From positions 138,762 to 176,433 of the forward strand of contig VGGK01000001.1 in the NCBI GenBank assembly GCA_016868665.1: a stretch of 37,672 bases of DNA. The letters run 5' to 3'. Shown piece after piece: positions 27,181 through 37,672 of this stretch (within the stretch, counting starts at the first letter, position 1; every line of letters begins with the position of its first letter). The position numbers and the translations under genes were made by a program. The notes under the pieces were generated by a model. The model was not told the DNA's origin. It made no database searches and saw only the letters and a program-made list of their open reading frames with translations. This stretch comes from Chlorobiota bacterium (lineage in GTDB: Bacteria > Bacteroidota > Chlorobiia > Chlorobiales > Chlorobiaceae).

Positions 27181-28062
27181 ATGGAAATTAAAACCGATCT
27201 CTATTTGGGTGACTGCCTGAATATCCTCAAAGAGCTACCGGACAACTCGACAGACCTGATATTCACCTCACCGCCATATGCAGATCAAAGAGAGAAAACC
27301 TATGGCGGCATTCATCACGATAAATACGTTGCATGGTTTCTGCCCATAGCCGAACAACTTTTGAGAGTCCTCAAACCAACCGGTACGTTTGTGCTCAACA
27401 TAAAGGAAAAGGTTGTCAACGGAGAAAGAAGTACCTACGTGATGGAACTCATCCTTGAGATGAAAAGAGAGCAGGGCTGGCTTTGGACCGAGGAATTCAT
27501 CTGGCATAAAAAAAACTGCTACCCCGGTAAATGGCCAAACCGGTTCAGAGACTCCTGGGAAAGACTGATCCAGTTCAATAAAAACAAACAGTTTTACATG
27601 AACCAGGAAGCCGTCATGGTTCCTATGGGCGAGTGGTCGAAAAGCCGTCTCAAGAGACTCAGCGAAACAGACAAAACCCGTGATGAATCCAAAGTCGGCA
27701 GTGGATTCGGGAAAAACATTTCAAACTGGCTTGACCGGGAAAAGGCCTATCCGACAAATGTACTCCATCTGGCAACAGAGTGTAACAACAAAAACCACAG
27801 TGCTGCATTTCCGCAGGGACTTCCGGAATGGTTCATCAAGCTCTTCACCAAAGAAGGCGACACTGTACTTGACCCGTTCATGGGCTCCGGCACAACCAAC
27901 GCTGTAGCCAAAAGAATGAAACGAAACTCGATCGGCATAGAAATTGTCCCGGAGTACTACGAGATGGTCAAAAACGAACTCGAACCGACGGAACTTTACC
28001 TGCTGGAAAAAAAGAACAGCTATGCAGCAAATCTCCCTGAACGACGTATCGACATACGTTGA
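27181..28062 (+). CDS. Type II DNA methyltransferase, beta class (probable N4-cytosine)
   Basis: Protects host sites from the neighbouring nuclease by methylating DNA with S-adenosylmethionine. 293 residues. The catalytic motif IV, DLIFTSPPYADQRE (about 25-38), comes before the SAM-binding motif I, VLDPFMGSGTTNAVA (about 223-237), the beta-class circular order. TSPPY is typical of N4-cytosine enzymes, though some N6-adenine enzymes share it. The variable region between (about 100-200, KNCYPGKWPNRFRDSWERL) should hold target recognition. The ATG at 27181 starts MEIKTDLYLGDCLNIL, a standard motif. It overlaps the nuclease gene by 41 nt, so the pair is co-translated. Confidence 0.92.
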   Translation: MEIKTDLYLGDCLNILKELPDNSTDLIFTSPPYADQREKTYGGIHHDKYVAWFLPIAEQLLRVLKPTGTFVLNIKEKVVNGERSTYVMELILEMKREQGWLWTEEFIWHKKNCYPGKWPNRFRDSWERLIQFNKNKQFYMNQEAVMVPMGEWSKSRLKRLSETDKTRDESKVGSGFGKNISNWLDREKAYPTNVLHLATECNNKNHSAAFPQGLPEWFIKLFTKEGDTVLDPFMGSGTTNAVAKRMKRNSIGIEIVPEYYEMVKNELEPTELYLLEKKNSYAANLPERRIDIR

Positions 28063-28756
28063 AAACAATATCGGCACCTTTCACCAGAAAAGGATTGCAA
28101 GCCTCGACGGCTTGAGCCTGACGAAAGTCCTGAAGAGAAAAAATCCCTACCTTTTCAAGGCGAAGTACGTTCTGACTGCTGAGGAAATCATCAGAGGCCT
28201 TGTCGATGCCCATATTTCATCGAACGAAGAAACGATTTTCGGCGACTGGCTTGAGGGACTTGCAATTTTCATCAACGGAAAAGTCTATGGAGGCTGGAAA
28301 TCAGGAATTGAGGGAATAGATCTTGAATTTGACAACAATGGGCAGCGATTCATGGTTAACATCAAGTCCGGCCCGAACTGGGGAAATGCAAGCCAGATAA
28401 AAAAAATGAAATCCGACTTCAGAATAGCCGCCAAAACGCTTCGTACCAGTAATTCAGGCCTGCAGGTTGTTGCGATCAACGGCTGTTGCTATGGAAAGAG
28501 CACCAATCCCGATAAAGGGGACTATTTCAAGTACTGCGGTCAAAGATTTTGGGAATTCATCTCTGGAAATGCCGAACTTTACATAGAAATCATCGAACCA
28601 TTGGGACATAAAGCGAAAGATAAAAACGATGAATTTCAGCAATCCTACGCCCAGAGAATCAACATGTTCACGAAGACCTTCACCTGCGAATACTGCAAGG
28701 ACAACGGAGCCATCGACTGGAAAAAACTCGTGGAATTCAACTCGTCGGCCCGGTGA
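28022..28756 (+). CDS. Type II restriction endonuclease, PmeII-like
   Basis: Partner nuclease of the upstream methyltransferase. 244 residues from the ATG at 28022 (MQQISLNDVSTYVENNIGTF), inside the end of the methyltransferase gene. Blocks that resemble the PmeII-type family: KVLKRKNPYLFKAKYVLTA, DAHISSNEETIFGDWLEGLA, VYGGWKSGIEGIDLEF and FMVNIKSGPNWGNASQIKKM. The PD-(D/E)xK-like core is probably E...GID...(x)IK: Asp in GIDLEF and Lys in NIKSG, with N in place of the usual E/D of ExK. A CEYC pair near the C-terminus (TCEYCKDNG) is isolated. Cleavage site unknown. The family name is from memory of similar sequences. Confidence 0.82.
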   Translation: MQQISLNDVSTYVENNIGTFHQKRIASLDGLSLTKVLKRKNPYLFKAKYVLTAEEIIRGLVDAHISSNEETIFGDWLEGLAIFINGKVYGGWKSGIEGIDLEFDNNGQRFMVNIKSGPNWGNASQIKKMKSDFRIAAKTLRTSNSGLQVVAINGCCYGKSTNPDKGDYFKYCGQRFWEFISGNAELYIEIIEPLGHKAKDKNDEFQQSYAQRINMFTKTFTCEYCKDNGAIDWKKLVEFNSSAR

Positions 28757-28783
28757 AACGTGTGACTTCGAATTTTTTTTCAG

Positions 28784-28981
28784 ATGCTGCCGGTTGATCT
28801 GGTTGCGGATTTGACGAAGTCGGCGGTGACGATGGTGTCGCCGAATGTGGCGGTTGTGGTGCTTGGTGCGCTGAAACCGACGGCGCCGCTGATCGGGAGT
28901 ACGGCTTATGTGGGGTTTTCGGTGTACAGCAAGACGACCGGACTTGGGGAGTGCGTGTTCAGGGGGTTACGGGTGGTGTGA
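28784..28981 (+). CDS. Short GC-rich open frame, possible gene remnant
   Basis: 66 codons, not recognised: starts MLPVDLVADLTKSAVTMVSP and ends GECVFRGLRVV. Its GC content is clearly above the flanking restriction and Abi genes and its third positions are mostly G or T, so it may be a piece of a different gene. No ribosome site is visible before the ATG. The preceding bases would read SNFFSDAAG in another frame just before this one opens, which could mean a frameshifted remnant. Real expression is doubtful. Confidence 0.25.
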   Translation: MLPVDLVADLTKSAVTMVSPNVAVVVLGALKPTAPLIGSTAYVGFSVYSKTTGLGECVFRGLRVV

Positions 28982-29068
28982 GGATGTATAGCATCGAACT
29001 GAAAGTGTAAAAAATTTTAACCTGGAGTATTGTATTCCGGAAACATTTACGTATTATGTGAACAACAC

Positions 29069-29122
29069 GCTCACCCCGCTTCCCGTCAGAACAGCGCGCT
29101 CAGGGTGAGCTTTTTGTTTTTC
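29069..29122 (+). terminator. Terminator between the restriction genes and Abi gene
   Basis: GCTCACCC (29069-29076) pairs with GGGTGAGC (29103-29110); TTTTTGTTTTT follows on the plus strand. It ends 11 nt before the Abi start, so the Abi gene needs a start site inside or after it, or read-through. Confidence 0.65.
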
Positions 29123-29132
29123 TACCCCGCCT

Positions 29133-30065
29133 ATGGCTGTACCATATAATAAAAGGGCTCTCGACCATGAAGAACAACTGCTGCTCCTCAAAGAACGTGG
29201 CCTCGGTGTTGAAGATGAGAGAAAAGCCCTCCATTTGCTCCGGCATATCAGCTATTACCGCTTAAGCGGTTATTGGTACCCTCTGCTGCAAGAACCAAAA
29301 TGCGAGCATTATTTTAAAGATAATGCGACGTTCAGTACCGCATTCAGGCTCTATTGCTTTGACCGGGAGTTGCGGCAACTGGTACTTGGAGAAATTGAGA
29401 AGATCGAGGTTGCCGTAAGAGCACAGATGATCAATACGTTATCGCTTGCATTCGGGCCTTTATGGTACACCGATTCGGCCCGGTTTAATAATCATAAGTT
29501 TCGGCATGACAAGATCATACAGAAACTGGAGGATGATTTTGTGAATAGCCAGGAAGAATTCATTCTGGCGTTCAGAAAGAAATATTCGGATCCTTACCCG
29601 CCCTGCTGGATGATTATGGAAATTGCATCCTTCGGGCAGATATCCACCTTGTATTCCGATATGAGGGGAGGAAAAAGCAAACGGATTATAGCGAAGCATT
29701 TCGGGCTCGACGATACAACGTTTGCCTCGTGGCTTCACTGCATTGTTTACTTGCGTAACCTTTGTGCACACCATTCCCGATTCTGGAACCGGGAATTCGG
29801 GGTGAGCCCTCAGATTCCAAACCGCCCGTTGAAGAGTTGGTTGTCAGAAGACACCATAAAGGCGATCAGAGGCGCAAACAGTGGAAAGTCGAATAACCGT
29901 GCATTTTACATGCTTTCGATTCTGTTGTACTTCCTGCAGACCGTCAATCCGAAAAGTACGTTCAGGCAGAAGTTTTGCAGCCTGACGAGTAAATATCCAA
30001 ACATTGATCTTGCAGCCATGGGGTTTCCGGCAACACTGGACAGCGAGACGTTGTGGAATGGTTAA
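29133..30065 (+). CDS. Abi_2 family abortive-infection protein (AbiD/AbiF type, HEPN)
   Basis: Predicted phage-defence protein that stops growth or infection by RNA cleavage. 310 residues. N-terminal block MAVPYNKRALDHEEQLLLLKERGL and HISYYRLSGYWYPL is the Abi_2 signature, FDRELRQLVLGEIEKIEVAV the central helix, and YLRNLCAHHSRFWNREF (about 205-221) contains R-x4-H (RNLCAH), the catalytic motif of HEPN ribonucleases. No partner antitoxin or AbiE-like gene is adjacent. The ATG at 29133 directly follows a terminator hairpin. It converges on the UDG-like gene with a 70-nt gap. Confidence 0.88.
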   Translation: MAVPYNKRALDHEEQLLLLKERGLGVEDERKALHLLRHISYYRLSGYWYPLLQEPKCEHYFKDNATFSTAFRLYCFDRELRQLVLGEIEKIEVAVRAQMINTLSLAFGPLWYTDSARFNNHKFRHDKIIQKLEDDFVNSQEEFILAFRKKYSDPYPPCWMIMEIASFGQISTLYSDMRGGKSKRIIAKHFGLDDTTFASWLHCIVYLRNLCAHHSRFWNREFGVSPQIPNRPLKSWLSEDTIKAIRGANSGKSNNRAFYMLSILLYFLQTVNPKSTFRQKFCSLTSKYPNIDLAAMGFPATLDSETLWNG

Positions 30066-30135
30066 CTTTTTTCTGCGCCTGCACAAGCAATTCTTAATCG
30101 GAATGTCTTTCGTTTTTTTCTGTCGTCTTACCAGT

Positions 30136-31167
30136 TTATAAGGGCGGAATTATTTCGAAATCATAGATGTCGTTTCCATAGCTGAATGACTGCTTCCCTG
30201 CCTGTTTCAGTTTAATTCGAAACGGGATATGTTTGCTATCAGGAAGACCCAATACCTTGAACGCCTGCCTGAGTGAGGTGAAATCGCCAATAAACGTGCC
30301 GTGTCGGTGCACCTTGACAGCATTCTTTTGCATCCTCTTTTTGCGGATTTCAGGATCTTCCCAGCTTTTTCTTACACCTTCTGAAATATTCTGATTTTTC
30401 TGCCCTTCATGAAAACCAAACACTTCCCCTCTGTTTTTTTCATTTCTGATTGTGTCAACCTGGATAGCCGATGTCCCTGTAACTTCATAAGTAGTATGAT
30501 GACTTGTTGACAAGTCAGGGAGTGTGTTGAAGACCGAAGGTGTTTCTATCTGCAATATTTTTCCTGCCTGTATGAACTTATCAGCGAGATCCTTTTTGCG
30601 ACGATCCCGTTCTATTGGGTCTTTAGTCCAAAAGGCCCGGGAACTGGTGTGATATGTATCTAATACCCGTAGCCTTGACATTTCGGGATATTTTCTCAAT
30701 AATCGTTTCCACAGATGCTTTGCTTCTCCACCATGCAGCATCAGAACAGTAAGGTTGGGCAGCAAATCGATAATTGTTTTCAGAGGCAGGATGCCGGCTT
30801 CGAGCTCTGATGGTGTTGGCTTTTTGTTGATGTACCATGGGTAGGCGTTCCATGGTACAATATCTTCTGCAGGAATGTTAACCCCGGCAAAAAGGTTGCT
30901 GAGTCTTTCAGCTGTTGAGTCATCATTTTCCATGCAAATGAACCCGCTTCCTCCGATTTTATCCTGGGTTTTGGGGCCAGGGTCTCTCAGAACACTCAAT
31001 AAACGGGCCTTGATACCGCCGTACATAGGCGGCACGTAAGGAACAGAATCGTTTCCGGCAACCTTGCGCAGCGTATCGACGTATTGATTGATCGGCGCAA
31101 TATGATGATCAAACCGATGCTCCCATTGCCGTTGGCGGAATTCAGGGTTTCTCATGAGACGGGCCAT
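30136..31167 (-). CDS. Uracil-DNA-glycosylase-fold protein with extra basic C-terminal domain
   Basis: About 343 residues. Residues about 45-205 look like the UDG superfamily: LLSVLRDPGPKTQDK (motif A, like xNPGxxS/xDPGxxT), FICMENDDSTAERL, DIVPWNAYPWYINKKPTPSE, VLMLHGGEAKHLWKRL (central strand) and LDTYHTSSRAFW (motif B position, with His). The usual Ung motif GQDPYH is absent, so this is not housekeeping Ung. Residues about 240-343 are Lys/Arg/Ser-rich: NISEGVRKSWEDPEIRKKRM resembles the small NUMOD3-like DNA-binding repeats of homing endonucleases, followed by FTSLRQAFKVLGLPDSKHI. The start is ATG 31167; GTG at 31173 is possible. It lies between Abi and jetD, which suggests a defence role such as excision of modified bases in invading DNA (inference). 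Confidence 0.7.
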   Translation of the reverse strand: MARLMRNPEFRQRQWEHRFDHHIAPINQYVDTLRKVAGNDSVPYVPPMYGGIKARLLSVLRDPGPKTQDKIGGSGFICMENDDSTAERLSNLFAGVNIPAEDIVPWNAYPWYINKKPTPSELEAGILPLKTIIDLLPNLTVLMLHGGEAKHLWKRLLRKYPEMSRLRVLDTYHTSSRAFWTKDPIERDRRKKDLADKFIQAGKILQIETPSVFNTLPDLSTSHHTTYEVTGTSAIQVDTIRNEKNRGEVFGFHEGQKNQNISEGVRKSWEDPEIRKKRMQKNAVKVHRHGTFIGDFTSLRQAFKVLGLPDSKHIPFRIKLKQAGKQSFSYGNDIYDFEIIPPL

Positions 31168-31368
31168 TGTCACTGCTTTTTGTTATGGATATAATTGAGA
31201 TTCTTGTCCAAACTTCGGCACATCCCTCTAACTCAAACGGCTGAATTCTCCAATTTCCGCTGAACCAAAACACGTAATACGGTAAAGGTACTGATTTTTT
31301 CGGTAAAAAAAGGAAAAGGAGGCACAGAACCTGCCGACCAACCGATACTGCGCTTCGTCGGAAAAACG

Positions 31369-32553
31369 TCACAATGTCGAGAGCGCAGCAACCAGATAAT
31401 CGAACCCGATCCGTTCCTGTTCCAGCCTTACCCGCTCACCCAGGCTGCCGCTGCGCAAATCGTCGTAGAGCGCCATTTCCTCACCGGTCAGCCTCGTCAG
31501 CTCCACAGTCTCGGGTGATGGCTCAACGCCCCAGAGCGTTCTGTGAGTCAGAAGCGTCTCTTTGTCCATAAGCAGGGAAACTGCCTCGGGAAAGAACCTG
31601 CGCAACTGATTGAGAATGGCGAAACCATGGGTATCGATGTCCCCCCAGTAATGGATCTTCCGCTCATGAAGCCAGTGGGCGGTGGCGAGATTTTCGAAAC
31701 CGTAACCGGCCCCGAAAATCACCATCGACCGGGAAACAGGGGGAAATGCAAGGAAGTTGATTTCGTTTTCGGTAATGAACACCGTTTCAATCGCAAGGTC
31801 CAATCCGGCAAACGCGCCCTCTGTCAGGGCGATATCCTGATCGGCATCCACCGGCAGGAGAGCCAGTTCGGGATCGAGAATTCGGAACCGTACCCTCAGG
31901 GGTTTATCCCTGAATCCGTAACGACGACAGAATCCGGCAGCGCCTGAAGCCCCGGCATCGGTGGGGTCAATCCGCTCCGGCGGAAGAGCGAGGTCGAACA
32001 GCTCGCCCAAAACGCCACGGTGAACCTCGATAAACTTGCTGTGCACGCCCGGCAGGTCGATCTGCCGCAGATAGATATCCGGACGCGGATGCATCTGCAG
32101 CCATGCGACGATCTGCAGAAGTTTCGGCCACGACCCGGCAAGTTCCAGCGTACGCAACGGACGCTTCCGGAGCCACGGAATGAGTTCCGGTTTCGTTTCG
32201 CGAGTCAGGGAAAGGAGATCGGCAAAGCGTTCGGCATCGCGAACCTTGCCGATGAAGGCCAATGCATCATCGATCGAATCGATCCATATCTCCGCCGGAA
32301 TCTCGTTGACTCCGAGAACGCGATGATTGAGCGTGCGCCAGACAATCCGGTAGTGCTTCGCCGAACCGGACAGCTGCGCAATCCAGTCGCGCACATCGGA
32401 AAACGATTCGCTGAGCTGCCTCGAATCCGGCCCTTTCAGGGTCAGACGCCGTGGAAACAACTCATCGTCTCCCATCAGAGAGGAGAGCAGAAGTCCTCGA
32501 TCCCAGAGCTTCTGCACATGGGTACGCAGATCAGCCGGAGTCGTCCAGTTCAC
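31369..32553 (-). CDS. jetD: Wadjet type I nuclease subunit JetD (DUF3322/DUF2220)
   Basis: DNA-cleaving subunit of the Wadjet anti-plasmid complex. 394 residues. The N-terminal half (about 1-180) is the DUF3322 arm (MNWTTPADLRTHVQKLWDRG, YRIVWRTLNHRVLGVNEIPAE). The C-terminal half is the DUF2220 TOPRIM-like nuclease: VFITENEINFLAFP with E262/E264, then IHYWGDIDTHGFAILNQLR with D305 and D307, placed to bind the catalytic metals. The start is GTG; its GTG overlaps the TGA of jetC (GTGA), indicating coupled translation. All four jet genes run on the minus strand. No clear terminator follows in the 195 nt before the UDG-like gene. Confidence 0.94.
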   Translation of the reverse strand: MNWTTPADLRTHVQKLWDRGLLLSSLMGDDELFPRRLTLKGPDSRQLSESFSDVRDWIAQLSGSAKHYRIVWRTLNHRVLGVNEIPAEIWIDSIDDALAFIGKVRDAERFADLLSLTRETKPELIPWLRKRPLRTLELAGSWPKLLQIVAWLQMHPRPDIYLRQIDLPGVHSKFIEVHRGVLGELFDLALPPERIDPTDAGASGAAGFCRRYGFRDKPLRVRFRILDPELALLPVDADQDIALTEGAFAGLDLAIETVFITENEINFLAFPPVSRSMVIFGAGYGFENLATAHWLHERKIHYWGDIDTHGFAILNQLRRFFPEAVSLLMDKETLLTHRTLWGVEPSPETVELTRLTGEEMALYDDLRSGSLGERVRLEQERIGFDYLVAALSTL

Positions 32554-35500
32554 CCCGGTTCTCCCTGTTTGGCAGCGCGATACTCCTCGATGGTGAGGTT
32601 GCGCAGCACCGAAGCCCGTCCATCCTCGTTACAGACAAAACCCACTCCGGAAACATAGGGCTCGATGATATGGATTTTCTGCAGCGGGGTTACGATGAGC
32701 AGCTGCAGGTTGAGCTGCGCGAAAAGCTGCAGGCCGTACTGTGCGGACTCGTCGGAACCGCGCCCGAACGCCTCGTCGATAACCACGAACCGGAACGACC
32801 GCGAACGCACCGCGCCCCACTCCAGACCGAACTGATAGGCAAGGCTTGCCGCAAGCACCGTATAGGCAAGCTTCTCCTTCTGCCCGCCGGATTTGCCTCC
32901 CGAATCGGCATAGTGCTCATGCTCGCTGTCATCTTCGCGCCACCGTTCGCTCGCCGCGAAGACGAACCAGTTGCGTACGTCCGTAACCTTGGCGGTCCAG
33001 CGCCGGTCGAGGTCCGCATGTTCCTCGCGACCGCGGAACCGGTCGATAATCCGCCGCACCTGAAGGAATTTCGCTTCGGAGTACTGCGCGTCATCCGAAC
33101 CGGTCAGGGACCCCTCGGTGCAGGCACGCAGTTCCGACTGAAAGTCACGGATATCGGCATCGAGGCTCATCTGCGCTTCGAGGGTGATGTAGCGGCCGGG
33201 ATTGTAATCGATCTGCGTGAGCGACTCGTTGATGCGGGCAATGCGCTCTCTGATACTCTCCCGTTCACGGGCGAGCTGCGACTGAAAATTGGCGACTTCC
33301 CGGATGGTGTTCTCGTTGAGCAGCTCCTTGAACCGTCCCTCGAAACGAGGCAGGTCGTCGGCCCGGAGCTGATCGAGCATCGAACGGTACTCGAACCCGG
33401 CGGCAATGTTCACATCGACCTCGCGGGTTTCAAGTTTCCACTCCTCCTTATACTCGGTCATCGCCCTGATGATCTTTTCGCCTATGCGGGAGAGTTTTTT
33501 ATCTTCCGAGTCGATTCTGTTCTGCAGAAAATCGCGCATTTCCCGTTCGCGGTTGTCGCATGACTCCACCGTCAGAGGCTGCACGCCAAGCGCTTCGTCG
33601 CGCATCGACTCGAGCAGGGCGAACTGCCCCGCTGCCTCAGTACCGGCTTCATCCCGCAGTGCCTCCGCCTGCTGCCGCAACTCCCGGAACCCGCTGATCT
33701 TCTGCTCGGTTTTCGACCGCTTGTCCTTGCGTTCGTCGAGCTGGAGCTCCGTTGCCTGCAGTTCGCCCTCCACTTCGGCAAGCTGCCCGGCAAGGGTTTT
33801 CAGAATATCCGAAGCCGCTTCGAGATCACGTTTTTCCGCTTCGAGCCTGGCAATGGCGACGGCCAGCGGCTGCCAGTCGAGATCGCGGAAATCGGGGTAC
33901 TCGTCGAGCTTTGAAAGGACGGTGAGCCGATCCTTCAGCGCCTTCTGCTCCTGCTGCAACGCATGGATCCTGCCGGCAAGTCCGGCAAGATGCTTCTCCT
34001 GCCGTGCGGCACTCTCTTCGAGCGCCGCGATCTTGGCGGCATTGCTCCACCCCAGCACATAGCGACTGCGGTCGTCAATCGGATGACGGTCGTCTTTTTC
34101 GTGGCGTTCACCCGGAGCCTTGATCTGGCCGGTGATGGTAACAGCTTTTTTCTCGCGCCGGAACTCCTCCTGATCACTGCAGCATACCAGATCGAAACGA
34201 TTGGCGATCTCACGCTCCATCCAGTCGAAATAGGGCGAATCGGCCTTGATGGCGATCTTGCGTACGAGAGAGGCTTCATGATCAGGTTGCCGACCCGACT
34301 GCGACTGCTGCCGTACCCGGAAATAGACCAGCCTTCCGTGAAGGTGGGTACGATCCACCCATGCCGCAACCGCGCCGTAATGACGGTCAGGCACCAGCAG
34401 GGAGAGGCCGAAGTTCCGTAAAAGGCGTTCGACAGCACCTTCCCACTCCCGCTCCTCTTCGAGAACCTGCAGCAGCTCTCCGGCAAAGGGCATCTCATCT
34501 TCGGCAATATCCAGCGCATGGCAGAGCGAACGACGAATGGCGACCTGCTTTTCATCGATGTTGCTGCGCCGCGCTTTCAGCCCCCGGATTTCGGCTGTCA
34601 GCCGCTCATGCTCCTGCCGCCCCTGGGTAAAGAGGACGCCCGCCTCGTTGAGATCGTTCTGCACCCTCGCCTCCCCGTCTGCACACTCCTCGCGCATTGT
34701 GCCATGAGTGAATCGCTGATCGAGGAACTCATCCACGTTCGATGCCGGACGTTCCCCGAGCTGACGCACAAGCTCCTCGTACCGAACCGCCTTCTGCCGG
34801 CACCGTTCAAGCTCTGACTGTTTCTGGCGGATTTCCGCACCGATATTCTCAATCCGGTCACCTCCGTTCTCGGCAATGGTGCGGCGCAACTCCCGCTCGC
34901 GCTCCTGCTTCAACCGGCGCTGTTCCTGCAGGCGCTCTACAGCCATGCTGTGTCGACTCAGCTCATCGTCAAGCGAGGCAAGACGCTTGTCGAGCAGGTC
35001 GAGCTTCAGCGTCGCGAACCAGGGGCGCAGCGATTCGCGGCATGAGCGAAGGTTCTCGGCTGTCGCGGCAATCTCATGATGACGGTCGCAATCGGCGACA
35101 AGAGGACTCAGCATCTCTATCTGACGCCGTGCCTTGAGCACAGCTTCATGAGCGCGGTTGAGGTTTTCGAAATGCTGGATAAGCGCGGCTATGCGGGGCT
35201 CCACATCGAACGGTTCGAGCATGTGCGTGCGCACGAAATCTGTCAGATTGCCCACCGACTTGAGCGAAACGGTCTGATGGAAAAGGTCGAGCGCCTGTTC
35301 GTTGTCAATGCCGAAACGGCGACGGAACCATGCCCCGTAAGGAGGAAAACTGTCGAACAGCTCGGCCCCCTCACTGCGCAGCCGTTTGCGCAGACCGGCT
35401 ATTTCAGTCCCGAAACCCGTAAAATCCCGAGCGATGGAGAGGTCGCGTTCACATGCCGTGTACAGGCGCGCAGGCTGTGCGACAGCATCCTTCATCCAGA

Positions 35501-35915
35501 AAACCTGGGCCAGGGTCACCGTCTTGTCGTACCCTTCGTTATGGAAGACGCCGAGAATCACCGAATAGCTGTTGTTGTCGCGCAGAGCGACCGGCTTCGC
35601 TCCGCCAATGCTCTCCTGACGTTCCGACTTGAAATAGCCAAGCACATATGAACGCAGCGAACGCTCGCGGGTATCGGCGCCTGCCGCCTTGTTATAGGCA
35701 ATACGCTGGCTTGGCACCAGAAGCGTGGTCACGGCATCGACCAGCGTCGATTTTCCCGATCCGATATCCCCGGTCAGAAGCTCGTTTTTTCCGCCAAGCC
35801 TAAGCGTCCAGACCCGTCCGTCGAAGGTTCCCCAGTTGAAAACCTCGAGTCGCTGCAATCGGAAACCGGCCAGACGATCATCGGCAACAAATCCCATTTC
35901 AAGCAGCTCACTCAT
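32550..35915 (-). CDS. jetC: Wadjet type I SMC-like ATPase JetC
   Basis: MukB-like SMC motor that extrudes DNA loops in the Wadjet complex. About 1121 residues from the ATG at 35915. The N-terminal ATPase half has LTGDIGSGKSTLVDAV (Walker A, 49-57), preceded by FRLQRLEVFNWGTFDGRVW. Long coiled-coil stretches rich in Glu/Arg/Leu run from about residue 280 to 900 with a middle globular part near 430-560. The C-terminal half has SGGKSGGQKEKLAYTVLAA (ABC signature, about 1005-1023) and RFVVIDEAFGRGSDE (Walker B plus D-loop, about 1043). The true start has a GGAGGG site 5 nt upstream (35921-35926) and overlaps the jetB end by 8 nt; the longer open frame to 35993 is rejected. Confidence 0.96.
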   Translation of the reverse strand: MSELLEMGFVADDRLAGFRLQRLEVFNWGTFDGRVWTLRLGGKNELLTGDIGSGKSTLVDAVTTLLVPSQRIAYNKAAGADTRERSLRSYVLGYFKSERQESIGGAKPVALRDNNSYSVILGVFHNEGYDKTVTLAQVFWMKDAVAQPARLYTACERDLSIARDFTGFGTEIAGLRKRLRSEGAELFDSFPPYGAWFRRRFGIDNEQALDLFHQTVSLKSVGNLTDFVRTHMLEPFDVEPRIAALIQHFENLNRAHEAVLKARRQIEMLSPLVADCDRHHEIAATAENLRSCRESLRPWFATLKLDLLDKRLASLDDELSRHSMAVERLQEQRRLKQERERELRRTIAENGGDRIENIGAEIRQKQSELERCRQKAVRYEELVRQLGERPASNVDEFLDQRFTHGTMREECADGEARVQNDLNEAGVLFTQGRQEHERLTAEIRGLKARRSNIDEKQVAIRRSLCHALDIAEDEMPFAGELLQVLEEEREWEGAVERLLRNFGLSLLVPDRHYGAVAAWVDRTHLHGRLVYFRVRQQSQSGRQPDHEASLVRKIAIKADSPYFDWMEREIANRFDLVCCSDQEEFRREKKAVTITGQIKAPGERHEKDDRHPIDDRSRYVLGWSNAAKIAALEESAARQEKHLAGLAGRIHALQQEQKALKDRLTVLSKLDEYPDFRDLDWQPLAVAIARLEAEKRDLEAASDILKTLAGQLAEVEGELQATELQLDERKDKRSKTEQKISGFRELRQQAEALRDEAGTEAAGQFALLESMRDEALGVQPLTVESCDNREREMRDFLQNRIDSEDKKLSRIGEKIIRAMTEYKEEWKLETREVDVNIAAGFEYRSMLDQLRADDLPRFEGRFKELLNENTIREVANFQSQLARERESIRERIARINESLTQIDYNPGRYITLEAQMSLDADIRDFQSELRACTEGSLTGSDDAQYSEAKFLQVRRIIDRFRGREEHADLDRRWTAKVTDVRNWFVFAASERWREDDSEHEHYADSGGKSGGQKEKLAYTVLAASLAYQFGLEWGAVRSRSFRFVVIDEAFGRGSDESAQYGLQLFAQLNLQLLIVTPLQKIHIIEPYVSGVGFVCNEDGRASVLRNLTIEEYRAAKQGEPG

Positions 35916-36543
35916 CGCGACCCTCCAACGGTTCCGCAGGTCGCTGCAGGTATTCGTCGAGCCGACGATCGAAATCCGACAGCCACTGGGCATCGATAAA
36001 AGCCTTGATGATCCGGCGGACTTCGATCATCTGCCTCTCTCCCCGCAAACGGCGGATAAAACCAAGCTCGGCGATTTTATTGAGCGAGGCATCCACCTGA
36101 TCGATCAGCCTGACCTCGTTACTGCCGGGCGGGAGGAAAATCCGTATCAGTTCGACCACCTCATCCCGCGACATAATCAGTCGCGTCTCTCCGGCACCGG
36201 CATCGAATTCGGCAAGTTTTTTGCGTAACAGCGCCAGGAGCAGGCTGACCGGATAGCTGAGCTGACGGCGTGCCATCAGGCGGGGAGTAGGAGTCGTCCC
36301 CTCTTCCTGGCTGTCAGAGCGGGAACGCAGAAAAGCATACCCTTCAGCTTCGTCGAAAATCAATTCCAGACCAAGCACCGCCACGTAATCGCGCACGGCA
36401 GCCGACAGGTTAAAGAGGGAACTCCACAACGCAGGGCTTTCGTCCTGGTAGATCACCCCCTTCAACAGGGGAATCACGACAAAAGAGAGATCCTGAGCTG
36501 CGTATTGCGAATGGCTGTTTTCTCTATCTGTATGGTTCATCAT
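35908..36543 (-). CDS. jetB: Wadjet type I subunit JetB (DUF4194, MukE/KITE-like)
   Basis: Small winged-helix subunit that binds the kleisin JetA and bridges the JetC heads. About 211 residues: LSFVVIPLLKGVIYQDESPA at the start, LFNLSAAVRDYVAVLGLELI, RRQLSYPVSLLLALLRKKLA, and VRLIDQVDASLNKIAELGFI, matching the DUF4194 pattern of short helices and a winged-helix core. The ATG at 36543 overlaps the TGA of jetA (TGATG); a second ATG follows immediately at 36540. The frame is open further up into jetA but that part has no family sequence. It overlaps jetC by 8 nt. Confidence 0.93.
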   Translation of the reverse strand: MMNHTDRENSHSQYAAQDLSFVVIPLLKGVIYQDESPALWSSLFNLSAAVRDYVAVLGLELIFDEAEGYAFLRSRSDSQEEGTTPTPRLMARRQLSYPVSLLLALLRKKLAEFDAGAGETRLIMSRDEVVELIRIFLPPGSNEVRLIDQVDASLNKIAELGFIRRLRGERQMIEVRRIIKAFIDAQWLSDFDRRLDEYLQRPAEPLEGRDE

Positions 36544-37672
36544 CAGTTTCTCAACAATATAATACGAGGCAGGGTCGCCTGCCGGGTGATGCCCGATGCA
36601 CTCTGCCATCTTACCTCATCCTCCTCACTTTCATCCACCGTCGTCCGCGGCCACTCCCCGGCAATCTGCAGATAGGCAACCAGCTCGGCCAGCCCGTTTC
36701 GCAAAGGATGACGCATCACCACCTCCCCGATGGTGATCTGGTTGCTGGTCTGAAGTTCGATCCGGATATTTCGCAGCAGCTCGGCCCTGTCGATCCTAAC
36801 CTGGGCGTAAAGAATTGCGGTATCGATTTCCGCATCCCCTTCGTCCATTGCGACGCCGGCAATCACCGGAGTGAATGGAAGCCGATAGAGCGCCCGTTCG
36901 AAAGGCAGTTCGATGAGAGCCGAAAAACCATCGAGAGGCATAAACCCGCCCGAAGGAAAATCTTCGCGCAACTCGAGCGCACGGGTTTCAATCCCGCGAA
37001 GAATATCCATGATACGCCGGTTCTCAAGCCACGCCTTGTCATCGAGAAACCTGCGCAACTGCTCGGAAAGCCGGGCCACCGTCCGCTGCGTATGCTCTCC
37101 GGCCTCCAGCCAGTCGTAGTGAACGCGCCGCAAACGGCTGTCGGGACGCATCGTCACGATCGGCGGCAGATCGAGCACCGTTTGCAGAAGCAGGCTCAAC
37201 TCCTCCTGGCGGGACTGCGACATCAGAAAATCCCAGAATGCCCTGAAACTTTTGCCCTGATCGGAATCTGCGATGGCATCGCGCTCTCCCATGATCTCCT
37301 CGAGCAGTGCGCCCTTCGATCCCTCCCAGAGGGCGATACGCTCGCGCACCCGGCGATCGAGAATGCGAAAGTTATGCTCCACCTCCCGAAAATCCGACAG
37401 CAGATCGCGCGCCAGCTGCAGAAACTGCTGGAACCGATCCTTAAGAGCCGTATCGTCGAGCATCGATATTTCTCCGGCAAGAATGCGCTCGATTTCGGCA
37501 TCGATCTCATGACGACGCTCCTGAAGTTCGGCAATCCGCACCTCGGGATCTGCCTGGCTTCCCGTACTCATCTGGCGCAACAGCTCAAACAGGGTGATCA
37601 GCCGGGACTCCGTGCCGACAAAAGCCCGCTCCGTCAGCCCCTCAAGCCAGGCCAGCGCCTTTTCGGTTGCCG
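36543..37672 (-). CDS. jetA: Wadjet type I kleisin-like subunit JetA (DUF3375), cut by right edge
   Basis: MukF/kleisin-like subunit that closes the JetC ring. About 375 C-terminal residues are visible and the frame runs on past base 37672 (TEKALAWLEGLTERAFVGTE), so the N-terminal roughly 100 residues are missing; full DUF3375 proteins are about 480-500 residues. Helical, charged: RIAELQERRHEIDAEIERIL, LLSDFREVEHNFRILDRRVR, SFRAFWDFLMSQSRQEELS, then a beta-rich end with EVVMRHPLRNGLAELVAYLQ. Its stop overlaps the jetB start. First gene of the jetABCD operon; the promoter is outside the window. Confidence 0.93.
   Translation of the reverse strand, partial: ATEKALAWLEGLTERAFVGTESRLITLFELLRQMSTGSQADPEVRIAELQERRHEIDAEIERILAGEISMLDDTALKDRFQQFLQLARDLLSDFREVEHNFRILDRRVRERIALWEGSKGALLEEIMGERDAIADSDQGKSFRAFWDFLMSQSRQEELSLLLQTVLDLPPIVTMRPDSRLRRVHYDWLEAGEHTQRTVARLSEQLRRFLDDKAWLENRRIMDILRGIETRALELREDFPSGGFMPLDGFSALIELPFERALYRLPFTPVIAGVAMDEGDAEIDTAILYAQVRIDRAELLRNIRIELQTSNQITIGEVVMRHPLRNGLAELVAYLQIAGEWPRTTVDESEEDEVRWQSASGITRQATLPRIILLRN

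Follow-up and report, generated by a model that had tools for sequence, protein, structure and literature searches.

Among the known phage defences, base excision has been added only recently, with Brig1 to Brig3. Brig1 excises alpha-glucosyl-5hmC and Brig3 excises 5hmC, the resulting abasic sites block phage replication, and Brig2 is reported to act against modified thymine (PMC11078745, PMC13160076). With Brig1 and Brig3, defence glycosylases of the uracil-DNA glycosylase (UDG) superfamily are a kind already known. In the published description Brig3 consists of one domain, whose pocket contains Asn50-Pro51-Ser52 and Asp127 (PMC13160076). Base excision also serves as restriction in the R.PabI-type enzymes (PMC10273834); these differ from the protein described here in that they have the unrelated HALF-PIPE fold and are paired with their own methyltransferase. 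A further point of comparison is Odn of the phage ICP1, a chimeric nuclease with an origin-binding domain borrowed from its target (PMC8263062).

The gene we investigated is located on the minus strand at positions 30136 to 31167, stop codon included, of a 37,672-nucleotide stretch of DNA from a Chlorobiota bacterium, hereafter the window. It encodes 343 amino acids, and its full-length homologues are 70-71% identical to it. An ATG at 31167 is preferred as the start to an upstream GTG because the N-terminal MARLM is kept in the homologues. The protein comprises a UDG-fold catalytic core (residues 1-208; 30544 to 31167), recognized by PF03167, Foldseek, VIA-align and dN/dS; a linker predicted to be disordered (residues 209-252; 30412 to 30543; pLDDT below 50); and a C-terminal NUMOD-like module (residues 253-343; 30139 to 30411), recognized by PHROG 4730, structural matches and dN/dS. 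Comparison of the window gene with its relatives gives dN/dS values of about 0.10-0.16 for the core and 0.15-0.26 for the tail, which are both under purifying selection; the linker, at 0.57-0.76, is nearly free of it. The value for the core rules out a chance reading frame and reveals a selected protein. Scans for promoters and terminators gave only chance-level hits.

Like Brig1 and Brig3, the protein belongs to the UDG superfamily, is found in a defence-island setting, has no second catalytic domain and is proposed to act by base excision. Unlike Brig3, with which it was compared by the described residues, it has Arg61-Asp62-Pro63-Gly64 and the second, NUMOD-like domain. The reading we prefer, and consider reasonably probable, is that this accessory, horizontally acquired glycosylase is a base-excision effector directed against phages or other invading elements. 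We prefer it because the protein combines a UDG fold and conserved motifs with selection on both domains, an accessory spread and defence genes as neighbours. Counted against it are two solitary homologues (in genomes G005 and G061), a relative in a fluoride operon, the unusual Arg61 and a poorly modelled active-site loop.

The core is a member of the UDG superfamily by its PF03167 profile and its predicted alpha/beta fold, as the initial annotation had proposed. The Pfam UDG profile PF03167 matches residues 51-188 with 26.1 bits, above the cut-off of 24.3, and relatives that do not carry the tail score 31-40 bits. The structure was modelled with AlphaFold2 from a shallow alignment; the predicted core matches UdgX in Foldseek (E 4.6e-6), and VIA-align gives Z 15.3 over 164 residues for UdgX and Z 15.2 over 167 residues for the Sulfolobus family-4 UDG, the matches to family-4 UDG and UdgX overall having Z 14-15, with Z 15 over 164-171 residues. 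The model has poor confidence at residues 62-81, the active-site loop, and the motif argument therefore rests on sequence. Searches with the 343-residue protein in NCBIfam, in PADLOC and, as a single sequence, in the PDB gave no match.

Following the published definitions of the UDG motifs (PMC5387724), we recognize on the minus strand motif 1, RDPGPKT (residues 61-67; 30967 to 30987), motif 3, WNAYPWY (residues 106-112; 30832 to 30852), and motif 2, HTSSRAF (residues 173-179; 30631 to 30651). Asn107 of motif 3 and His173 of motif 2 are invariant among 15 homologues. The profile of these 15 homologues matches a Thermotoga UDG weakly (E 0.011); in this alignment motif 1 falls on GEGPG, the motif-3 Asn on the Asn of the Thermotoga enzyme and His173 on the His of THPS, and Asp62 has the position of the water-activating Asp of UNG. 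RDPGPKT, HTSSRAF and the absence of GQDPYH had been noted before and are evident in the translation; the absence of GQDPYH does not amount to a loss of the family-1 catalytic residue, since RDPG retains an Asp at that place. Because the Asp at the UNG catalytic position is kept and the Asn and His are invariant, the glycosylase is probably catalytically active.

Three described families were considered for the core and rejected: family 1 UNG (GQDPYH is absent, with LRDPGP in its place and Asp62 kept at the catalytic position), family 4 UDGa (RDPG, not GE(G/A)PG, and one cysteine) and UdgX (neither GEQPG nor the KRRIH loop is present, by the motif definitions in PMC10359453). The nearest solved folds are those of family-4 UDG and UdgX, which have the motif-3 Asn and the motif-2 His in common with the core, but the core has RDPG where these enzymes have GE(G/A)PG or GEQPG and lacks both the KRRIH loop and the Fe-S cluster; with a single cysteine in the whole protein, a family-4 Fe-S cluster is impossible. 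The clade of ten sequences to which the core belongs is monophyletic with full support, in all bootstrap trees. In this clade RDPG is the motif 1 of the Chlorobium-type proteins with the tail, of a proteobacterial relative (G061) and of Streptomyces; a further tail-less relative (G471) has SDPG, and of two Rhodococcus sequences one has QDPG and the other PTPG. The Asp is near-invariant within the clade, and the sister branch mostly has E-x-PG. The Arg61 of the window protein is an unusual residue at the second position of motif 1 and may contribute to setting the substrate. What the protein would add to the base-excision defences is a UDG subfamily that is separate in phylogeny and whose motif, R/Q/S-D-P-G, is unusual. 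The initial annotation had called it a candidate undescribed effector, which holds for the architecture but not for defence by base excision in the UDG superfamily, already published for the Brig proteins (PMC11078745, PMC13160076). In the open-licence literature searched we found neither this subfamily nor a glycosylase of this kind fused to the NUMOD-like module that phages and McrA-like nucleases also have, and no paper that combines NUMOD, glycosylase and defence.

The main rival to the preferred reading is that the protein is an extra DNA-repair glycosylase for uracil, hypoxanthine or another damaged base, which travels on mobile DNA and is found among defence genes only as that is where mobile genes land. 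Members of the UDG superfamily usually repair DNA, and plasmid copies are annotated as uracil-DNA glycosylase. However, the distribution of the gene is very patchy. Among the 37 genomes of the genus that were searched first, five contain the full-length gene, and of the 170 genera in a sample of the phylum (394 genomes), one yielded the core of this clade. The same genome also encodes a separate UDG of the family-4 type, with GEAPG and cysteines, and on this ground we rejected a housekeeping UDG as an explanation of the window gene. The GC content is 45% in the glycosylase gene, 46-47% in the neighbouring restriction-modification (R-M) pair and AbiD, 59% in Wadjet and approximately 52% in positions 1-27000; since it differs between the parts of the island (27181 to 37580), the island is a mosaic. 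The patchiness within one genus, the low GC content and the presence of the host's family-4 UDG mark the gene as accessory. A GC content as low as that of the adjoining R-M and AbiD genes, the separate family-4 UDG and the precedent of Brig1 and Brig3 are further reasons for reading the protein as a defence effector, and on balance we regard the repair explanation as rather unlikely. Viral contigs queried with the whole protein and with the core yielded no relative.

The location between an Abi gene and a Wadjet system, described in the initial annotation, was confirmed by PADLOC. The Abi gene is AbiD (29133 to 30065, plus strand; E 1.3e-75), which is convergent with the glycosylase gene and 70 bp from its stop, and it is adjoined by an EcoO109I-type R-M pair (27181 to 28756, plus strand; PF01555 methylase, PF14511 RE_EcoO109I, PADLOC MTase_II). 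The Wadjet system is of type I and lies on the minus strand: jetD (31369 to 32553; JetD1, E 3.2e-153) is upstream of the glycosylase gene with a gap of 201 bp, and jetC, jetB and jetA (32550 to 37580; JetC1, JetB1, JetA1) extend with jetA to the end of the contig. Among the other tail-bearing homologues, that of G022 (locus L001) is next to a 2013-residue helicase-nuclease that matches the PADLOC candidate PDC-S37, and those of G019 and G031 (L002 and L003) lie on the same strand as the gene for a type ISP restriction-modification enzyme, which is 37 bp upstream of them, but that of G005 is solitary in housekeeping surroundings. The expected defence-gene setting was seen in the window, in G022 and in the context of G019 and G031, but not in G005, the third of the other contexts with a tail-bearing homologue. 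Three of four contexts adjoin defence genes, and although four are too few for statistics, the neighbourhoods favour a role in defence, which also speaks against the repair explanation. The tail-less homologue of G061 is likewise solitary, between cell-wall and pyrimidine genes; 40 bp upstream of the one in G471 is a WYL regulator gene, and the Streptomyces plasmid copies, also tail-less, are near transposases. The two solitary homologues, in G005 and G061, fit an enzyme of repair better. In the neighbourhood survey homologues were next to defence genes or solitary and not scattered among repair genes.

The position of the gene on the same strand as jetD and 201 bp downstream of it, together with the 37 bp that separate its homologue from the type ISP gene in G019, could also mean that the protein is an accessory subunit of whichever system adjoins it (Wadjet in the window, type ISP in G019) and no effector in its own right, possibly a non-catalytic DNA-binding protein. 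This is very unlikely: the partner systems vary from context to context and none is present in G005, the catalytic positions are conserved, and the GC content of 45% contrasts with the 59% of Wadjet.

A relative from the sister branch illustrates a different setting. On the Pantoea agglomerans plasmid NZ_CP126685.1 this UDG gene (L077:4983-5582) is found within a fluoride operon with genes for a TDT-family transporter, a DHHA2 protein, a universal stress protein, enolase, phosphoglycerate mutase and CrcB, and Rfam identifies a fluoride riboswitch at L077:5632-5701. The wider family is thus not uniformly defensive, and a sister-branch gene in a stress-type operon is what one might expect if these glycosylases repaired DNA.

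The C-terminal tail of approximately 90 residues has a calculated pI of 9.9 (residues 253-343) and matches PHROG 4730 over residues 252-340 with an E-value of 1.3e-24. Its predicted structure consists of two helices, a beta hairpin, two more helices and a second hairpin. Among the chains re-aligned with the second-look aligner, the C-terminal part of the HNH homing endonuclease I-HmuI came first, with Z 5.6; third was I-TevI, by its DNA-binding domain, with Z 3.0. These Z values are low and have little meaning alone. Foldseek returned nothing for the tail at E below 0.1, and the homing endonucleases emerged only with the second-look aligner; a Pfam scan of the 343-residue protein gave no match to a curated NUMOD profile. 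However, with the Pfam profile I-HmuI_NUMOD-like, whose cut-off is 27, a Paraburkholderia HNH nuclease that carries the module scores 19.2 (E 9e-4), and I-TevI_DNA-bd is matched by a phage copy with E 0.11, likewise below the cut-off. Given the structural matches and these independent sub-threshold hits of its relatives, the comparison of the predicted tail to the NUMOD-type domains of I-HmuI and I-TevI is reasonable, though the tail has no curated membership; unlike in those proteins, the module is joined to a glycosylase and not to a homing nuclease. The initial annotation had proposed a basic, NUMOD-like tail: the charge stands and the resemblance is found twice independently, but every score is below the curated threshold. 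Nor is the tail a generic module: it is a specific one, common to phages and HNH nucleases. We infer that the tail binds DNA. When a profile of the tail was searched against the PDB, the only matches were fluorescent proteins, none better than E 0.12, and these were judged to be due to chance and discarded.

In phages the module is found in 352 records at 34-53% identity, mainly Pbunavirus-type Pseudomonas phages and Wifcevirus-type coliphages, and most of the records of Pbunavirus and Wifcevirus contain the conserved PHROG 4730 gene. It forms the C-terminal part, of approximately 85 residues, of phage proteins that have another N-terminal region and no glycosylase core. Two of these proteins (L065:3428-4228 and L006:2602-3228) have the N-terminal stretch LVAFYN...KKFADR.TAE.RV in common, and the one in L065 also has CxxC pairs that resemble those of a zinc ribbon. 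In bacteria the module is found at the head of HNH nucleases, in two genomes from the window's genus (G018 and G029) and in one case on a Paraburkholderia plasmid; the HNH nuclease of G018 matches the PADLOC type IV methyl-directed (McrA-like) enzymes. Within the bacterial family of the window, 9 of 86 genomes contain the tail, on this UDG in five, on an HNH nuclease in two, in a short reading frame in one and as a fragment in one; it was not found in 249 genomes of the phylum of G061, a sample that has no positive control. That the tail is common to McrA-like HNH nucleases and phages, and not to repair enzymes, is a further point against an extra repair glycosylase. The reading as a defence effector, in turn, gains from the occurrence of the same tail on a McrA-like HNH nuclease in a defence island and from a UDG-HNH fusion in the sister branch.

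The defence island of G018 (L057:5523-16840) contains, in addition to the tail-bearing HNH nuclease, a sacsin/TmtA-like gene, a HEPN-SNF2 DrmD-like gene, a HEC-02-like gene and a Septu pair. The fusion, in G076 (L061:8285-9571), is a protein of 429 residues in which a sister-branch UDG is joined to a middle part that matches the PADLOC candidate PDC-S36 and to a McrA-like HNH domain, so that a single chain has domains both for excising bases and for cutting strands.

As to how the preferred defence effector would work, the NUMOD-like tail may keep the enzyme bound to DNA, whether in general or at certain favoured sites. Judging from the motif positions, the core would flip out a base which host DNA lacks or seldom contains and break its glycosidic bond; Asp62 and Asn107 would position the water, and His173 would stabilize the leaving base. 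By comparison with Brig1 and Brig3, the abasic sites would then stall phage replication or be cut by AP endonucleases. If this were the case, then defence by base excision would be built from modules and might be directed to sites, and the family would provide glycosylases with novel specificities for bases or sequences; the glycosylase is, in any event, seen joined to a module of the targeting type, found as well in phages and on McrA-like nucleases.

A more specific proposal is that the protein is a chimeric immune glycosylase whose tail was captured from the phage PHROG 4730 protein, so that excision is directed to the binding site of that protein, with the tail swapped between the glycosylase and the McrA-like HNH nuclease within one genus. 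We consider this version improbable. Like Odn, such a protein would combine an effector with a DNA-binding domain that a mobile element also has, but Odn is a nuclease and has a known origin target. Steering of the glycosylase by a tail captured from a phage DNA-binding protein to that phage's own site, as in Odn (PMC8263062), would fit the finding that the tail of the window protein is 48-53% identical to the Wifcevirus module, as close as to the HNH copies of its own genus. The presence of the module in most Pbunavirus and Wifcevirus records and the modular swapping among UDG, HNH and phage proteins are consistent with it as well. However, for green sulfur bacteria no such phage came to light, and since the branching of the tail tree is unresolved, it gives no direction of transfer; we therefore think such steering to be doubtful at best.

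Two further observations concern the surroundings of the homologues. A gene of 230 residues is located beside the UDG gene in G022 (L056:1320-2009) and beside a sister-branch UDG gene in G033 (L059:8582-9259), the two copies being 59% identical; it was dropped as a candidate for a conserved partner, being absent from the window. In G022, inspection by eye also revealed an ADP-ribosylglycohydrolase-like gene (L056:13275-14219) and a macro-domain-like gene (L056:11221-12129) approximately 10 kb from the UDG gene; Brig1 and Brig3 are likewise located near a predicted ADP-ribosyl glycohydrolase (PMC11078745, PMC13160076).
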